The position numbers and the translations under genes are program-made. Under the pieces are notes generated by a model, which did not search any database, was not told where the DNA came from, and worked only from the letters and a program-made list of their open reading frames with translations. This document shows, one piece after another, positions 19,108 through 33,061 of a DNA stretch of 45,706 nucleotides (the first letter of the stretch is position 1; each line of letters begins with the position of its first letter). Source of the stretch: Bacteroidota bacterium (GTDB taxonomy: Bacteria; Bacteroidota; Ignavibacteria; UBA10030; UBA8401); assembly GCA_005792285.1 (NCBI GenBank), contig SXSI01000036.1:1-45706 (forward strand), read 5' to 3'.

Positions 19108-21075
19108 TTAATTTCTTTCTATTGATTCTAAAATAATTTCTGCAATATCTTTTACAGTAACTTTTTCCGATGCTTCTTTTGCTTTAACTCCATCATTTAA
19201 CATTGTCAAACAAAAAGGACAACCAACTCCAATTGTACTCGCATTTGTAGAAAGCGCTTCTTCGGTACGTTCAATATTTATTCGTTTGCCAATTGTTTCT
19301 TCCATCCACATTCTGCCTCCACCTGCACCACAACAAAGTCCTTTATCTTTTGACCGTGGCATCTCAACAATTTCAAGCCCGGGAATTGATTTTAAAACAT
19401 CCCGCGGAGCATCAATAACGTTGTTATACCGAGCAAGATAACAAGAATCGTGGTAAGTTAATCGCTCTTTTTTTTCTTTGTTGACATTTAATTTTCCATC
19501 GTCAATTAATTTTAAAAGAAAATCTGTATGGTGAACAACTTCGTAATTACCACCAAATTGTGGATATTCTTTTTTTAGGGAATGGAAACAATGCGGGCAA
19601 GTAGTAACGATTTTTTTAATGTTGTAAGAATTCAAAGTACCCACATTTTCTGTAATCAACATTTGGGCAAGATATTCATTTCCCAATCTTCGAGCTGGAT
19701 CACCGGTACACTTTTCTTCTTTTCCTAAAATTGCAAAATTAATTTTTGCCAAATTCATTAACTCGGCGAATGATTGTGTAACACGTTTATATCTTTCGTC
19801 GTAAGCACCTGCACAGCCAACCCAAAATAATATTTCAATTTGGTTTCGTTCTTCTTCTGAAAGTGTGAAAAATGAATTAATATTTTTTCCTTCAGCCCAA
19901 TTTGCACGTGTGTCGTGCGAAAATCCCCACGGAGTAAAATTGCGTTCAAGATTTTCAAAAGTAGTTTTAACTTCCGGTGGAAATCGTGAATCATCAAGAA
20001 CCATTCCTCTTCGAAGGTCAACAATTTCATCAACATGTTCAATCATAACTGGACATTCATAAACACAAGCCATGCAAGTTGTACAAGCCCAAAGTTCGTC
20101 TTCGGTTATATAATTATAAAGTAATGTATTTTCAGGGTTGAAATTTTTTTCGTCAGTTCGGCGTCTTGTTTCAGTAACTATTTTTCTGGGAGAAAGAGTT
20201 TTGCCTGTTAAATGTGCCGGACAAACTGAATCGCATCTTCCACATTCAGTGCAAGTGTATCCGTCTAATAATTGTTTCCACGACAGATCAGTAATATCTT
20301 TTGCGCCGAAAGTTGTTAATGTTTCATCAGATAAATTAATTGGCTTCAGCGCACCTTTTGGAAGTAACGATGAGAAATAGACATTTGGTATTGAAGTTAA
20401 AATATGAAGATGTTTTGAATTTGGTAGATAATTTAGAAATCCGAGAACTAATAAAATATGCGACCACCAAAAAGTAGTTTCAAATAAAATTGTTGTTGAA
20501 GAATTTGCGAAATTATTTGAAAGAATCGATGAAATAGGATATTGCCAGTTTGCAGTTATTGTATGTAGTGAAATTCTAGTTGCATTTTGTAGAAGTAAAG
20601 TGGATACAATTGCTGCAATCCAAAATAAAATTAATGCAGCATCAAATGATGCTGAACTACTTACTTGAAGTCGATTAATTTTAGAAATAAATCTTCTCCA
20701 TAAAGCTACAAATATTGAGAGTAAAACAATTAGACAGAAAATTTCTTGTGTGAAAGTTATAACTTTATAAGTTGTACCCAAAAATGAGAAAGAAAATTTT
20801 CCAAATCCTAATAAACCTTCACCAATTGATTCAATTACAGCAAACAATAAAGTGATAAATCCCCAATAAATTCCAAGATGAAGTAATCCGGGAATTGGAT
20901 CACGAAGTAATTTTGTTTGTGCAAATGCAATTACTAAAACCCGTTTTATTCTTTGTAATATATTGTCAAATCTTTTTTCAGATTTTCCTTTTCGAATTTT
21001 ATTTATTAGTTGATAAATATTAAATCCAAAAAGCGTAAAACTAGTTACAAGAATTAAGCTAAATATAATTTTCAT
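19108..21075 (-). CDS. Membrane Fe-S oxidoreductase, EMO/HdrD-like (ETF:quinone type)
   Basis: 655 residues. The N-terminal 230 contain several membrane helices of NarI/HdrE type with candidate heme ligands H66, H206, H222 and H224. A cytoplasmic di-cluster domain follows: CTECGRCDSVCP (275-285) and CTTCMACVYECP (331-341). Two HdrD-like CCG domains come last, with C421/C456/C493/C496 and C545/C581-582/C619/C622 ('GLCCGAGGGR', 'GCPFC'). This is the architecture of EMO proteins, which pass electrons from electron-transfer flavoprotein to menaquinone in beta-oxidation; DsrK/GlpC-like homologues share the C-terminal part. No etfAB is in the window. Its start overlaps the stop of the DUF4905-like gene by 4 bases. 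Confidence 0.88.
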   Translation of the reverse strand: MKIIFSLILVTSFTLFGFNIYQLINKIRKGKSEKRFDNILQRIKRVLVIAFAQTKLLRDPIPGLLHLGIYWGFITLLFAVIESIGEGLLGFGKFSFSFLGTTYKVITFTQEIFCLIVLLSIFVALWRRFISKINRLQVSSSASFDAALILFWIAAIVSTLLLQNATRISLHTITANWQYPISSILSNNFANSSTTILFETTFWWSHILLVLGFLNYLPNSKHLHILTSIPNVYFSSLLPKGALKPINLSDETLTTFGAKDITDLSWKQLLDGYTCTECGRCDSVCPAHLTGKTLSPRKIVTETRRRTDEKNFNPENTLLYNYITEDELWACTTCMACVYECPVMIEHVDEIVDLRRGMVLDDSRFPPEVKTTFENLERNFTPWGFSHDTRANWAEGKNINSFFTLSEEERNQIEILFWVGCAGAYDERYKRVTQSFAELMNLAKINFAILGKEEKCTGDPARRLGNEYLAQMLITENVGTLNSYNIKKIVTTCPHCFHSLKKEYPQFGGNYEVVHHTDFLLKLIDDGKLNVNKEKKERLTYHDSCYLARYNNVIDAPRDVLKSIPGLEIVEMPRSKDKGLCCGAGGGRMWMEETIGKRINIERTEEALSTNASTIGVGCPFCLTMLNDGVKAKEASEKVTVKDIAEIILESIERN

Positions 21076-27137: not shown

Positions 27138-27211
27138 GGGCCCTTAGCTCAGTTGGTTAGAGCAGATGACTCATAATCATCGGGTCGCAGGTTCAAGTCC
27201 TGCAGGGCCCA
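27138..27211 (+). tRNA. tRNA with CAU anticodon (elongator Met or Ile2)
   Basis: Complete cloverleaf: acceptor GGGCCCT/AGGGCCC, D arm GCTCAGTTGGTTAGAGC, anticodon stem GATGA/TCATC around loop CTCATAA (anticodon CAT), T arm GCAGG-TTCAAGT-CCTGC, discriminator A. It lacks the initiator features (C1-A72 mismatch, GGG/CCC anticodon stem). The acceptor end and the GGGTCGC..GTTCAAGTCC part resemble E. coli tRNA-Ile2 as much as elongator tRNA-Met, so identity depends on whether C34 is changed to lysidine. CCA is not encoded. Confidence 0.92.
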
Positions 27212-27357: not shown

Positions 27358-28065
27358 TTACTTTAATTCCCTCTCCTTAGCTAATAATTTTTCGTATCCT
27401 TCAATCAAAGGATGTTGCCAAGTTTCTTTAAGCATTTTTAAAACCCCATTTTCAAACCAAAATTTTTGATCTTTACCTTGGTTAAATTTTTTCAATTTTG
27501 GATTTATGACCAAACTGCAATATGATTGATTTGAATTCTGATTGTAATAGTTTTGATGATATTCTTCGGCTTTATAGAATTCTGTTAATTTTGAAATTTC
27601 AGTAACTATTTTATTTTCCCAAATCACTAAAGATTTATTTTTAACTTCTTTAGATATTTTATTCTGAGTTTAATCATGGTAAAATATTGCTGAACGATAT
27701 TGTGTGCCAACATCAGCACCTTGTTTATTTAAAGTAGTTGGATCATGTGTTTTGAAAAATATTTCCAATAATTCTTTATAAGAAATTATTTTCGGTTCGA
27801 ATGTAATTTGAACAACTTCAGCATGTCCCGTTTATTCTGTACAAACTTGATCATAAGTAGGATTTTTAACAGTGCCACCGGAATAACCCGATTCAACTTT
27901 TACGACACCATTTAATTGTAGATAAATGGCTTCAACACACCAAAAACATCCTCCTGCGAGAGTTGCCAATTCATATTTATTTTCCATCTTTTTACCTTTA
28001 TTTGATGAGCTATCTTGCATTAAAAGAACCGGAGACATCAGCATAAATAATAAAATTATGTTCAT
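27358..28065 (-). pseudogene. msrA: Peptide-methionine (S)-S-oxide reductase, two in-frame stops
   Basis: One unbroken minus-strand frame reads as MsrA with an N-terminal signal-like segment: catalytic 'GGCFWCVEA', '[18 protein letters not shown]', then TAA (27832-27834), '[13 protein letters not shown]', '[14 protein letters not shown]', a second TAA (27670-27672), then 'KISKE' and 'EEYHQNYYNQN'. Both TAA codons stand where functional homologues carry a residue, so each could be a single-base change (for example GAA or AAA to TAA). No frameshift is needed. The last 40 or so codons (after 'LKKFNQGKD') do not look like a standard MsrA end and reach the flanking repeat. The wild type would repair oxidised methionine, here probably outside the cytoplasm. 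Sequencing error cannot be excluded. Confidence 0.85.
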
Positions 28066-28702: not shown

Positions 28703-28734
28703 AAAAAAGCCATTCAGTTTTGAATGGCTTTTTT
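28703..28734 (+). terminator. Rho-independent terminator after the lipoprotein gene
   Basis: Arms AAAAAAGCCATTCA (28703-28716) and TGAATGGCTTTTTT (28721-28734) with a GTTT loop, followed by more T. It is the clearest intrinsic terminator in the window and is nearly symmetric, so it could work in both directions. It isolates the lipoprotein gene from the next operon. Confidence 0.92.
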
Positions 28735-28817: not shown

Positions 28818-31800
28818 ATGGCAAAACTAAAACTAAATTTACCAAACTTCAGTTTTAACGATTTATTCGTACCGGATAAACTTGAAGAGTTAACGAATAT
28901 TTTCAATGCTTTTTCTGAAAAAGAAGATTTAGAAATTTATTCTAAATTTCAGAATTACAAAGAGGGGAAAGGGAATTATACTAATCCAGAAATCTCAGAA
29001 ATATTAATTGAAATGGGAAAAATGTTAAATGACTTTATCTCGATTATTTTTAAAGTGGAAGATATTACCTTAAAACTTGAAAATAATAAATTAGATGAAA
29101 GAGGAATTTTAAAATTTAAAAAAGAATTTTTCATTAGAAGAGCATTAAAGAAGTTCTCGAGGGAAGAATCTCTAAAATTATATCTTGATAATCTAAATTC
29201 TGAAATAAATAAATATTTTCAAGATTCGGATTTACAGAATGACTTTGAAAATAGTTTTGCATTATTAGCAAATCAATTAATCGAAATTGATAAGCAAGCC
29301 CGGATTAATTTAAATGATGAAATAAAAAGCAAAATTAATAAAATTGTAAAAGATAGAAATATTAAATTTTCTACTGATGATAATTATATTTCTTTTATTA
29401 ATGAAGCAATTACTCTTTTTGAAAAATGGATTACTGCAAGTTATTATCAGCAAAATTCTAAAACAAAAAATTGGATTTCATTTGTAATTCCTCAAAAAAT
29501 TGAACCACTACATTTAGTAAATTATGAAATAAAAAATGGTTCATTTATTGGAGAAGAAAGTCATTACAGAAAAAGAATTGGTTTTGATTTAACTGATGAA
29601 CGATATAACATTCGCCAAATTGCAAATGAAGTTGATTATTGTATTTATTGCCACGATAGAGAAAAAGATTCATGCTCTAAAGGATTTTGTGAAAATAATG
29701 AATTCAAAAAAAATCAACTTGGATATAAATTAAAAGGTTGTCCGCTCGATCAAAAAATTTCCGAATCACATGCAGTTGAAGCAACTGGAAAAACAATTGG
29801 TGCATTAGCAATAATAATGATTGACAATCCACTTTGTGCTGGAACTGGTCATCGAATTTGTAATGACTGTATGAAGTCCTGCATTTTTCAAAAACAAGAT
29901 CCTGTAAATATTCCGCAAGTTGAAACCGGAATTTTGACTGATGTTTTAAACTTACCTTGGGGGTTTGAAATATATTCACTTTTAACAAGATGGAATCCAT
30001 TAAATATTTCACGACAGTATCCAGTAAATTATAAAGGAAAAAAAATTCTTATCGCTGGAATGGGACCTGCTGGTTATACGTTATCTCATTATTTATTGAA
30101 TGAAGGATTTGGAGTTGTTGGAATTGATGGATTAAAAATAGAACCGATCCTTTCAGAATATATTGGTGAAAATTGTTTGCCAATAAAATATTTTGATTCA
30201 ATCAAAAGTAAATTAAGTGAAAGAATTCATCTCGGTTTTGGTGGTGTTTCGGAATATGGAATTACAGTTCGTTGGGATAAAAATTTTCTAACTGTCATTT
30301 ATATTAATTTGATGAGAAATAAATATTTCAAATTGTACGACGGAGTTCGTTTTGGTGGAACAATTTCAATTGATGATGCTTGGGAATATGGATTTGATCA
30401 CATTGCGATGGCAACTGGTGCTGGCAAACCTACTTTTGTTGACATAAAAAATAATTTAATTAGAGGGATTAGAAAAGCAAGTGACTTTTTAATGGGTTTG
30501 CAATTAACAGGAGCCGATAAAAAAGATTCACTCACAAATCTTCAAGTTCAATTACCTGCAATCGTAATTGGTGGCGGATTAACTGCAATCGATACTGCAA
30601 CTGAACTTATTGCTTATTATCCAATTCAAGTAATTAAAATTAAAAATAGATTTGTTGAGTTAAGCAAAATTTATGGCGAAGACGATATTCTAAAAATATA
30701 TAATGAAGAAGAAAAAATTATTTTAAAAATATTTTTAGAACATGCATCTGAAATTGAAAAAGTAAATAAAAAAGCTGAATTAAATAATGAATCACCAAAC
30801 TACATTCCTTTAATACGAAAATGGGGTGGAGTTAAAATTTATTATAGAAAAAGTATAATCGATTCTCCAGCTTATAAATTAAATCATGAAGAAATTATTA
30901 AAGCGCTCGAAGAAGGAATTGAGTTTGTTGAAAAAATGAATCCAACTGAAGCAATAAAAGATAATTTTGGTTCGCTTAATGAAGTATTGTTTGAAGAAAT
31001 GATATTAGAAAATGGGAAGTGGAAAAACTCAGGAAATGTAAAAAATATTTTAGTTCGAACACTTTTAGTTGCTGCAGGAACTGTTCCAAATGTAATGTAT
31101 GAAAGAGAGCATCAACAGACATTCAAGCTCGACAAATGGGATCAATATTTTAAATCTTATGAAATAAATAAAAATAATGAATCGTTGATCGAAAAACAGA
31201 GTGAATCTACTTTCTTAACTTCTTATGACAAAAATGGAAAATATATTTCCTTTTATGGAGATAGCCATCCTGAATATGCGGGGAATGTTGTAAAAGCAAT
31301 GGCTTCGGCAAAAAATGGATATAAAAAAATTGTTTCACTTTTTAATCAAAAAGATTATCTGTCAAAAGAAAATAAATCGGATTGGATTGAATTCACAAAA
31401 AAATTAACTAATGATTTAACAGCAATAGTAGTAAAAGTAGACAGATTAACTCCAACAATAGTTGAAGTAATTTTATATGCACCACAAGCTGCAAGAAAAT
31501 TTCATGCAGGACAATTTTATAGATTACAAAATTATGAAATAGATTCATTAAAAATTGACAACACATTATTAATGATGGAAGGACTTGCATTAACTGGTGC
31601 TTGGTGCGATAATGAAAAAGGACTTTTAAGTTTGATCGTTTTAGAAATGGGTGCGAGTACAAAAATGTGCAGTATGTTAAAACCAAATCAAAAAGTTGTT
31701 TTGATGGGACCAACTGGCGAACCAACCGAAATTGAAGAAAATTCTACAGTATTATTGCTTGGTGGCGGTTTGGGAAATGCAGTTCATTTTTCAATTGCGA

Positions 31801-32390
31801 AAGCTTTTAATGAAGCCAACAGCAAAGTTATTTATTTTGCAGGATACAAAAAGAAAGAAGATTTATTTAAGCAAGATGAAATTGAAAAAAATACTGACGT
31901 AATTGTTTATAGTGTGGATAGCGGTGAAGAAATTCATCCAAGAAGAAGTCAAGATAAAACTTTTGTGGGAAATATTATTCAAGCGATGATTGCTTATGCG
32001 AATGGAGAACTTGGCAATGTTGAAATTCCATTAAATAGTGCAACACGAATAATTGCAATTGGTTCAGATAGAATGATGGCTGCGGTTTCAGCAGCTAGAC
32101 ATACAACTTTAAAACCATTTCTAAATCCAAATCATATTGGGATTGCATCAATAAACTCCCCAATGCAATGTATGATGAAAGCAATTTGTGCGCAGTGTTT
32201 ACAAAGACATGTAAATCATGAAACGGGAAAAGAAGAATTTATTTTTTCTTGTGTAAAACAAGATCAATGTATGGATGATGTGGACTTCGAACATTTAAAA
32301 TCGAGATTGAAACAGAATACTGTATTGGAAAAAATATCCAACAGTTGGTTCGACTATGTAGTTGAAAAAAATAAAGTTGAACGGATTTAA
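28818..32390 (+). CDS. Fused NfnB/GltD-like and NfnA/PyrK-like flavo-Fe-S oxidoreductase with novel N-terminus
   Basis: 1190 residues. Residues 1-265 match nothing I know and are helical and charged. Residues about 270-360 form a GltD-like cluster region: C275, C278, C286, C291, C308, C340, and C348/C351/C355 ('RICNDCMKSC'). Residues about 405-880 are the GltD-type flavoprotein: 'ILIAGMGPAGY' (FAD) and 'IVIGGGLTAIDTATEL' (second nucleotide). Residues about 890-1160 are ferredoxin-reductase/PyrK-like: 'FHAGQFYRL', 'LLLGGGLGNAVHF', and a [2Fe-2S]-type set C1118, C1124, C1127, C1145. NfnAB bifurcates electrons between NADH, NADPH and ferredoxin; a similar redox role is inferred, not shown. It overlaps the convergent barrel-like gene by 4 bases. 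Confidence 0.85.
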   Translation: MAKLKLNLPNFSFNDLFVPDKLEELTNIFNAFSEKEDLEIYSKFQNYKEGKGNYTNPEISEILIEMGKMLNDFISIIFKVEDITLKLENNKLDERGILKFKKEFFIRRALKKFSREESLKLYLDNLNSEINKYFQDSDLQNDFENSFALLANQLIEIDKQARINLNDEIKSKINKIVKDRNIKFSTDDNYISFINEAITLFEKWITASYYQQNSKTKNWISFVIPQKIEPLHLVNYEIKNGSFIGEESHYRKRIGFDLTDERYNIRQIANEVDYCIYCHDREKDSCSKGFCENNEFKKNQLGYKLKGCPLDQKISESHAVEATGKTIGALAIIMIDNPLCAGTGHRICNDCMKSCIFQKQDPVNIPQVETGILTDVLNLPWGFEIYSLLTRWNPLNISRQYPVNYKGKKILIAGMGPAGYTLSHYLLNEGFGVVGIDGLKIEPILSEYIGENCLPIKYFDSIKSKLSERIHLGFGGVSEYGITVRWDKNFLTVIYINLMRNKYFKLYDGVRFGGTISIDDAWEYGFDHIAMATGAGKPTFVDIKNNLIRGIRKASDFLMGLQLTGADKKDSLTNLQVQLPAIVIGGGLTAIDTATELIAYYPIQVIKIKNRFVELSKIYGEDDILKIYNEEEKIILKIFLEHASEIEKVNKKAELNNESPNYIPLIRKWGGVKIYYRKSIIDSPAYKLNHEEIIKALEEGIEFVEKMNPTEAIKDNFGSLNEVLFEEMILENGKWKNSGNVKNILVRTLLVAAGTVPNVMYEREHQQTFKLDKWDQYFKSYEINKNNESLIEKQSESTFLTSYDKNGKYISFYGDSHPEYAGNVVKAMASAKNGYKKIVSLFNQKDYLSKENKSDWIEFTKKLTNDLTAIVVKVDRLTPTIVEVILYAPQAARKFHAGQFYRLQNYEIDSLKIDNTLLMMEGLALTGAWCDNEKGLLSLIVLEMGASTKMCSMLKPNQKVVLMGPTGEPTEIEENSTVLLLGGGLGNAVHFSIAKAFNEANSKVIYFAGYKKKEDLFKQDEIEKNTDVIVYSVDSGEEIHPRRSQDKTFVGNIIQAMIAYANGELGNVEIPLNSATRIIAIGSDRMMAAVSAARHTTLKPFLNPNHIGIASINSPMQCMMKAICAQCLQRHVNHETGKEEFIFSCVKQDQCMDDVDFEHLKSRLKQNTVLEKISNSWFDYVVEKNKVERI

Positions 32391-33061
32391 ATTGCCTTAC
32401 CAAAACTAAGAGTAATAAAAAGTCCACCAAATTCTTTCATACTTTTAGTTTCACTTTCAGATAATTTCATACTTGGAAGACCAGATCTATAAGGAATAAA
32501 ATAGTAACGAATATTTACACCATTTAACGCAGAAGTTGATGTCCCAAAATGTGCACCGAATCCAACATAGCCGCCAAAAGTCCAATACGATTTTCCTTTT
32601 CCCAAACTTGAAAAAAATTCTTTACCATAATTTGTTGTAAAAATCATAGTCGGTCCAATTGCTGCATTTATAAATGGACGAAAGTTGTCTAAAATATCTT
32701 CCGAAAATATTCTGTATTGAGCTCCTGTATAAATTGGAATTATAAGAAATCTATTAATTTTTCCAGGAGTATAAATTTGTCCCCAATAATCGTAATACTC
32801 AACTTCATTGTCATCCTTCGATTCATTAAATGTAAGTGAAGTGAGAACAGTTAATTTCGGATTTAATTTCAGAGCATAAAATCCTCCAACACCAAATCCG
32901 CCATTTGATATTAAAATATCAACTCCCCACATTTTTGATGGTTGAATATATTCGAAAGATGAGACTCTTTTATTTAGAATTGATTTGCTGGAATTCTTTT
33001 CAAAACTAAAGGAAGAATTTAATGATGCGATAAAAAGAAAAATTAAAATAGATTGATTCAT
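32387..33061 (-). CDS. Exported beta-barrel-like hypothetical protein
   Basis: 224 residues with a signal peptide (hydrophobic residues 4-18, cleavage near SFS-F). The mature part alternates hydrophobic and polar residues with many Gly and aromatic residues ('ISNGGFGVGGFYALKLN', 'YWTFGGYVGFGAHFG') and ends in 'FGGLFITLSFGKAI', a beta-rich end. This looks like a small outer-membrane beta-barrel, but no family is recognised. It begins 3 bases after the RlmI-like gene on the same strand and is likely co-transcribed. The stop overlaps the convergent oxidoreductase end by 4 bases. Confidence 0.7.
   Translation of the reverse strand: MNQSILIFLFIASLNSSFSFEKNSSKSILNKRVSSFEYIQPSKMWGVDILISNGGFGVGGFYALKLNPKLTVLTSLTFNESKDDNEVEYYDYWGQIYTPGKINRFLIIPIYTGAQYRIFSEDILDNFRPFINAAIGPTMIFTTNYGKEFFSSLGKGKSYWTFGGYVGFGAHFGTSTSALNGVNIRYYFIPYRSGLPSMKLSESETKSMKEFGGLFITLSFGKAI

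Follow-up and report, generated by a model that had tools for sequence, protein, structure and literature searches.

What reaction is carried out by a single chain that resembles several known flavoenzymes at once? The question is raised by a gene of 1190 codons (28818-32390) on a 45,706-nucleotide contig of a Bacteroidota bacterium (GenBank assembly GCA_005792285.1, contig SXSI01000036.1), which was analyzed at its full length and is here called the window (its genome is G000). The original prediction, made from the sequence alone, described the product as a fusion of GltD/NfnB-like and NfnA/PyrK-like modules behind a head of no recognized kind, a description that fold comparison has since borne out. 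The answer that we favor is a single-chain Nfn-type enzyme that would join NADP(H), NAD(H), and ferredoxin; its cofactors, substrates, direction, and partner we infer from residues and predicted models, and we think that the assignment could equally well prove right or wrong.

Modules and cofactor sites of the fused protein

In an AlphaFold2 model computed on a 72-row alignment of the family (mean predicted local distance difference test score, pLDDT, 90.0; predicted template modeling score, pTM, 0.91), the chain is a helical head followed by an NfnB/GltD-like module and then an NfnA/PyrK-like module. Pfam placed Pyr_redox_2 at residues 409-758 and, below threshold, Fer4_20 at 306-371. Among known structures, the best fold match of residues 248-844 in the predicted model was NfnB of Pyrococcus furiosus (5jfc_L; Z 20.6, root mean square deviation [rmsd] 2.2, 439 residues aligned), with the best GltD row below it (2vdc_G; Z 18.5, rmsd 3.3, 430 aligned), and that of residues 867-1185 was NfnA (5jca_S; Z 32.9, rmsd 1.8, 277 aligned), with the best PyrK row below it (5ksw_B; Z 28.0, rmsd 2.3, 254 aligned). 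Because the matches to NfnA and NfnB exceeded those to PyrK and GltD, they argue for the single-chain Nfn reading. A profile alignment showed that the Nfn-type C-terminal segment (VDFDEL...EKIS) is kept in the window protein. The NAD(P) domain of the NfnB-like module carries an insertion, residues 603-668, which lies between its first helix and second strand, within long helices (588-619 and 630-655), and which is absent from the canonical NfnB and PRK12779-type proteins compared.

Conservation was scored on the same 72 rows (alignment A2), which comprise the window protein, 8 of the 10 other rows of alignment A1, and 63 of 80 loci collected from genome contigs, hand-picked for spread (locus L080 has an X and locus L090 is partial; 56 of the rows make up alignment A4). 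Three shortened proteins from family f10, described below, are not among the rows, so the counts of invariant positions do not cover them. Eighteen of the 21 positions checked were invariant in 72 of 72 rows, ten cluster cysteines among them: C275, C278, C308, C348, C351, C355, Q358, E369, R485, K488, R677, E921, A924, T926, C1118, C1124, C1127, and C1145. The remaining three varied (C286 was found in 71 rows and G922 in 70, and residue 678 was K in 60 and R in 12), and C291 and C340 of the window protein were not conserved among relatives. The GltD/NfnB-type cluster cysteines of the original prediction were thus present and, C286 excepted, invariant, and the Cx5Cx2C...C set that it had singled out for a conservation check (C1118/C1124/C1127/C1145) was as described and complete in every row.

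When the family was aligned by profile with canonical NfnB and NfnA from the window's class, E369 fell on the Glu of AIGKLER and R485 on the Arg of YGIPEFRLPK, correspondences that come from alignment and not from a holo structure; C1118 fell near the Asp of DGTGMCGGC, ERIPIT was replaced by EGLALT, and YRR was replaced by YRK. The canonical NfnA proteins owe their Asp to selection, since they were picked with the pattern DG.G.C..C, to which each of the 12 nfnAB loci contributed one protein. A review of Nfn, in its available text, describes the N5 Arg as conserved throughout Nfn and links the Asp ligand to a cluster at +80 mV (PMC6405883); Glu ligation of a cluster, the flavin potentials of PyrK, and the nonbifurcating NfnII are given in the accessible portion of another source (PMC8097209). 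The two NAD-domain signatures of the NfnA-like module, GGLGNAV (from G983) and IGSD.MM (from I1081), were invariant in the 72 full-length members. In 16 Pseudomonadota loci that we read, the family's active-site signatures persisted down to 35% identity; the a-FAD motif departs in L109, the most divergent full-length locus among the 16 (L100, L110, and L111 are partial). Judged from these residues, the low-potential branch of Nfn (the N5-Arg position, the Glu-ligated proximal cluster, and the distal cluster) looks intact, and the high-potential branch is rebuilt relative to Nfn and absent in three f10 genomes. The invariance of E369, R485, and the four [2Fe-2S] cysteines, together with the retained C-terminal extension, is a further argument for the single-chain Nfn reading.

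In the mechanism that we envisage, NADPH (or NADH) would reduce the flavin adenine dinucleotide (FAD) of the NfnB-like module. One electron would then leave this FAD by way of both [4Fe-4S] clusters for a one-electron carrier, e.g., ferredoxin, and the second would reach NAD+ by way of the [2Fe-2S] cluster and then the FAD of the NfnA-like module. The reverse may also occur, with NADH and reduced ferredoxin making NADPH. Bifurcation would, on this scheme, have survived an all-Cys [2Fe-2S] site. In a bolder version, the family would be an electron-bifurcating transhydrogenase in one chain, widespread among respiring bacteria, with an all-Cys [2Fe-2S] cluster and a remodeled flavin site in its high-potential arm and with a new helical fold that guards or guides the low-potential exit to ferredoxin and thereby lets bifurcation proceed in oxygen-exposed cells; this strikes us as rather unlikely.

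The head folded confidently when modeled alone (pLDDT 92.8). It had no Pfam match in the window protein (56 family heads gave six stray matches, each in a single member), its sequence profile found no relative in the PDB, and its predicted fold had no clear match (Foldseek best E 1.4; Z at most 4.5 on a second look), a result that does not prove a new fold. It is the less conserved part of the protein, with 20-54% identity to the window's head and a mean column identity of 34% versus 54% for the whole protein. Among 294 genomes of the window's class, 62 matched the enzyme at E 1e-100, and a search with the 56 heads also found 62, of which 61 were the same genomes. The two exceptions look like contig-end fragments (the piece in G185 starts at base 1 of its contig, and the head in G193 ends 221 bases before the end of its contig), so no free-standing head was seen among the 294 genomes. 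The original prediction called the head unknown, and in these searches it had no Pfam family in the window protein, no clear fold match, and no occurrence apart from the enzyme in the 294 genomes. The probability that it is related to the N-terminal part of PRK12779-type proteins came out at 0.4%, with only six low-diversity sequences on that side. The docking or sensing role first suggested for the head is a guess; most likely the head, which is always on the NfnB-like half beside the cluster domain, shapes or protects the carrier's docking site.

Variants, co-occurrence, and rival explanations

In families f11 and f19, the enzyme is encoded by two separate genes. Both halves are present in all eight carriers, either on separate contigs or more than 1 Mb apart (1.3 Mb in G064), and this co-retention supports the single-chain Nfn reading. 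In family f8, the halves are neighboring frames (three carriers read: G061, G070, and G079). In split forms, it is the NfnB-like half that carries the head; in f11 the head was only weakly matched in three of four carriers, and in G148 only at its end. At one split locus (L125), the NfnB-like half adjoins a gene that by eye is lipoyl synthase-like, a single case that was dropped as evidence.

Canonical NfnB, called by TIGR01316 at an E value of at most 1e-110, was found in 138 of the 294 genomes; 14 genomes had both NfnB and the family, 48 the family only, 124 NfnB only, and 108 neither (odds ratio 0.25, p 1.4e-5, kinship between genomes being ignored). Outside the window's order, just 2 of 47 carriers also have canonical NfnB, and this rarity favors the single-chain Nfn reading; family f10 has 15 carriers and 11 NfnB genomes, and family f15 has six and five, with no genome holding both in either. 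The position of the enzyme gene directly downstream of canonical nfnB in both f16 carriers (G050 and G094) points the same way. In G050, nfnA, nfnB, and the enzyme gene follow one another on one strand, the last gap being 254 bases, and in G094 nfnB is followed by the enzyme gene. In G050, DGTGMCGGC, ERIPLT, and YRR stand in the canonical copy and the motifs of the family in the fused one, so that genome retains both forms together. In the window's genome and its congener, we found neither canonical NfnB nor PntB, and both have the POR_N domain of 2-oxoacid:ferredoxin oxidoreductase, a combination that in G000 also speaks for the single-chain Nfn reading. None of eight named genomes (two of Methylomonas and one each of Methylococcus, Methylomagnum, Pyrinomonas, Myxococcus, Corallococcus, and Polyangium) had a TIGR01316 match above the cut-off; in seven of them the best match scored 258-291 bits and is probably GltD.

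Association of the enzyme with aerobes was rejected: COX1 was missing in 2 of 62 carriers versus 12 of 232 other genomes (p 0.74), and its presence in 280 of the 294 means that it does not discriminate. In a post hoc comparison within f10, on which we do not rely, COX1 was missing in 4 of 11 NfnB-only genomes versus 0 of 15 carriers (p 0.02).

Several observations weigh against a single-chain Nfn enzyme. The Asp ligand, ERxPxT, and, in the 60 rows with K at 678, the YRR pair, which the Nfn review holds conserved in the portion available (PMC6405883), are changed here. Canonical NfnB accompanies the family in 12 of 15 carriers within the window's order, so the family is not simply a replacement for it, and the co-occurrence counts take no account of kinship. 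PntB is present in 6 of 10 carriers tested, and replacement of Pnt was rejected as a general rule; POR_N is missing in two of seven carriers tested, so the enzyme is not linked to any one source of ferredoxin, and a general tie to 2-oxoacid:ferredoxin oxidoreductase was rejected likewise. Finally, three f10 genomes (G113, G142, and G205) have frames of 866-869 residues that end just after the NfnB-like module, keeping the cluster cysteines and the counterparts of E369 and R485 (the Glu of VNIPLVE and the Arg of GITVRWDKN). A search of these genomes for the NfnA-like half at E 1e-3 returned the junction stretch alone. With no NfnA-like half, the Nfn route to NAD+ cannot operate there, and the rule that both halves always occur together, true of the eight f11 and f19 carriers, was rejected in general.

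The chief rival, a nonbifurcating NADPH:ferredoxin (or flavodoxin) reductase like NfnII of P. furiosus, whose NfnA-like arm no longer passes electrons to NAD+, draws on these same three genomes, with their head and NfnB-like half and no detectable NfnA-like half. The changed a-FAD motif (EGxAxT) and the changed [2Fe-2S] ligand both lie in the NfnA-like arm, and NfnII itself is, in the accessible part of PMC8097209, a plain NADPH:ferredoxin reductase with an obstructed NADH site. Invariant GGLGNAV and IGSD.MM signatures are, however, unexpected for a dead arm, and we regard this rival as possible but somewhat unlikely. Alternatively, the GltD-like and PyrK-like modules might feed a dedicated partner or substrate, with the head binding this protein or small molecule. 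Of the 62 genomes found with the enzyme, 61 also gave the head, which was not seen alone among the 294, and GltD-like modules work with unrelated partners in both glutamate synthase and dihydropyrimidine dehydrogenase, as far as the available text of PMC8097209 goes; yet no neighboring gene is shared by more than 6 of the 80 loci, and the head is the less conserved part of the protein, with no cofactor motif noticed in it. We consider such a reductase improbable.

It is very hard to credit the remaining alternative, a fusion between the small subunit of glutamate synthase and a 2-polyprenylphenol hydroxylase. This is the name of the nearest NCBIfam model, NF005128, and the available part of a Neorickettsia paper uses it so (PMC5481527), but Pfam gave the protein neither a glutaminase nor a synthase domain, the GltD model TIGR01317 gave 34.2 bits against a cut-off of 447.7, and the C-terminal module is NfnA/PyrK-like by fold and no hydroxylase; the domain content contradicts the name.

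The locus, the family, and its name

The original prediction of a monocistronic gene preceded by a terminator agrees with what we found (Table 1). The stem search upstream gave two hits, the same palindrome on both strands (shuffled sequences, mean 1.0, standard deviation 1.0), and the downstream gene (32387-33061) is on the opposite strand, so the gene stands alone at its locus. The accompanying claim that no partner gene hints at its donor stood at the locus. In the collection, where many flanks were truncated at contig ends, no neighbor family was shared by more than 6 of 80 loci, bar antisense shadow open reading frames (ORFs) of the enzyme gene at 12 loci, and a conserved operon partner was rejected; the claim did not stand in f16, where the gene follows nfnB in both carriers. 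Among ten neighboring ORFs, Pfam found an aromatic amino-acid lyase, a CAAX-like protease, a cytidylyltransferase, a short-chain dehydrogenase, a methionine sulfoxide reductase fragment, a methyltransferase with a PUA-like domain, a DeoC-type aldolase, and a HAD hydrolase (two had no match), a set that suggests no functional link with the gene. No PyrD-like gene was found among 18 window genes searched.

Just 5' of the region is a tRNA gene (27138-27211, plus strand; Rfam RF00005, 74.1 bits). The gene for the peptide methionine sulfoxide reductase MsrA (27358-28065, minus strand) looks decayed, with a motif that by eye looks N-terminal in one short minus-strand frame and the C-terminal end (PF01625 positions 119-152) in another. 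A 655-residue TfrB/LdhH/GlpC-like protein encoded at 19108-21075 (minus strand; 173 bits to TfrB, cut-off 385) is probably a heterodisulfide-reductase-type Fe-S protein.

Table 1. Features of the enzyme gene in the window, and variant forms at other loci
Feature	Position	Strand	Basis or detail
Terminator-like stem-loop with T run, 14 pairs, 5' of the gene	28703..28734	+	Stem search
Whole gene	28818..32390	+	ATG start, 1190 residues (1190 codons)
Head, residues 1-245; helices to 211, beta hairpin 236-245	28818..29552	+	Model, Pfam, PDB profile, Foldseek
First [4Fe-4S] motif, C275, C278, C286, C308 (Cx2Cx7Cx21CP)	29640..29741	+	Alignment
Second [4Fe-4S] motif, C348, C351, C355 (RICNDCMxxC)	29859..29882	+	Alignment
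E369, aligned to Glu ligand of NfnB proximal [4Fe-4S] cluster	29922..29924	+	Profile alignment
NfnB/GltD-like FAD and NAD(P) domains, residues 405-845	30030..31352	+	Pfam, sequence profile, fold
R485 in GFGGVxEYGITxRWDKN, aligned to Nfn Arg at N5 of bifurcating FAD	30270..30272	+	Profile alignment
Insertion in NAD(P) Rossmann domain, residues 603-668 (about 65 residues)	30624..30821	+	Model, profile alignment
R677-K678 in YRK, counterpart of YRR NADP-phosphate motif	30846..30851	+	Profile alignment
NfnA/PyrK-like FAD and NAD module with Nfn-type C-terminal extension, residues 867-1185	31416..32372	+	Sequence, fold
Residues 921-926, EGLALT where Nfn has ERxPxT at a-FAD	31578..31595	+	Profile alignment
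All-Cys [2Fe-2S] motif, C1118, C1124, C1127, C1145 (Cx5Cx2C...C)	32169..32252	+	Alignment
f16 nfnB and enzyme gene, same direction (nfnA too in L147)	L147:587-6902; L146:426-6029		
Split enzyme, head plus NfnB-like and NfnA-like genes at separate places	L116-L121, L125, L126		Split near residue 790
Head plus NfnB-like half only, f10	L149:5556-8162; L150:5952-8558; L151:2627-5224		

NF005128 (PRK06567) shares the domain order of the window protein, head included. The match (E 9.9e-198, 659.3 bits) is below the curated cut-off of 1072, as are those of seven further members (600-675 bits); it spans residues 10-1011 on profile positions 6-928 of 1031, taking in the head and leaving the last 179 residues outside, and 22 of 56 family heads match the model alone. 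Chance is excluded by ten relatives in the window's order, which share 55-73% identity with it along their full length. A scan of genome contigs by two conserved peptides, RICNDCM and MQCMMK[AE], gave at least 583 stretches, at least 575 of them encoding a relative, and the 80 loci kept come from Ignavibacteria, Acidobacteriota, Myxococcota, Pseudomonadota (Methylococcus and Methylomonas), Planctomycetota, Nitrospirota, and a few other phyla, many of them from metagenome bins. Genera with a family member include Methylococcus, Methylomonas, Myxococcus, Polyangium, and Pyrinomonas, which lead an aerobic life. NF005128 was matched by 2 of 99 genomes of a phylum sample at E 1e-30 and by 15 of 299 genomes of Pseudomonadota (the phylum of Methylomonas) at E 1e-60, the latter all under the cut-off and with Rickettsiales copies not knowingly among the sequences compared. 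The 72-row tree largely tracks phyla (13 label changes versus a minimum possible of 8) and neither proves nor excludes transfer. Among frames of about 1050-1110 residues with weak matches near residues 285-438, the one that was read (L113) is not a member; by eye it has the look of a NuoF/HydB-GltD fusion and adjoins an [FeFe]-hydrogenase-like ORF. The genomes G000 and G001 are about 1.7 Mb, versus 2.9-4.5 Mb in the f1 relatives searched, and the enzyme was found in none of the 20 f1 relatives searched outside their genus.

We found no experimental study of this NF005128-like family in the open-license literature, and the accessible part of Poudel et al. 2018 (PMC6085437) does not mention it; the family is large, widespread, and named but apparently uncharacterized. 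The database name, glutamate synthase beta/polyprenylphenol hydroxylase, is probably wrong. In the Neorickettsia paper, as far as its text was available, breakdown of glutamine to glutamate was inferred from a protein of this name (PMC5481527), a step that the domain content here does not support, the comparison being with the window protein and not with the Neorickettsia protein.

According to the available part of the Nfn review, bifurcation by Nfn is mainly a device of anaerobes, and a single Acidobacterium is the only aerobe known with Nfn homologues (PMC6405883). If the family does bifurcate, the known range of electron bifurcation would be wider, and the all-Cys cluster would allow the need for a +80 mV Asp-ligated cluster to be tested; if it does not, the family would be a ready natural contrast to Nfn. 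Either way, the current database name misleads. We conclude that the family is a real, widespread variant of the Nfn kind and not a new kind.

Comparison with Nfn and its relatives

The window enzyme shares with NfnAB (PDB 4ylf, 5jca, and 5vj7) both modules, the positions of the N5-Arg and the proximal-cluster Glu, and the Nfn-type C-terminal extension, and it differs in being one chain with the NfnB part first, in its extra head, and in its NADP-domain insertion. Where NfnAB has the Asp(Cys)3 motif DGTGMCGxC, the family has Cys for Asp (72 of 72) and one extra residue; ERxPxT at a-FAD is EGxAxT; and YRR, which places two Arg on the NADP 2'-phosphate, is mostly YRK, with R677 kept throughout. 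Of RCx2Cx4Cx3CPV and GRVCPQExQCx3C, the family keeps the seven Cys and the Glu at a different spacing (Cx2Cx7Cx21CP and Cx2Cx3C), the second [4Fe-4S] motif being shortened. The window protein scores 74.8 bits with TIGR01316 (gltA/NfnB), against a cut-off of 471.75. PyrK also has an FAD/NAD module with an all-Cys [2Fe-2S] motif, spaced Cx4Cx2C, whereas the window enzyme has Cx5Cx2C and carries the Nfn-type extension; with the PyrK models PRK00054.1-1 to -4 it scores 36 to 40 bits, against cut-offs of 219 to 314.

The fused Nfn "Pattern C" of Liang et al. 2019, whose NfnA part is C-terminal and which is given as uncharacterized in the portion available (PMC6405883), is, by length and order, probably NCBIfam NF009415 (PRK12779). 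It resembles the window enzyme in being one chain with an NfnB-like part first, an NfnA-like part last, and an extra N-terminal stretch. The window protein scores 129.3 bits with NF009415 against a cut-off of 1519, however, and the heads are not detectably related. The Asp motif (VDATGMCGAC), GIPEFRLP, and YRR are all retained in six NF009415 proteins, in contrast to the window family, which is therefore a separate variant.

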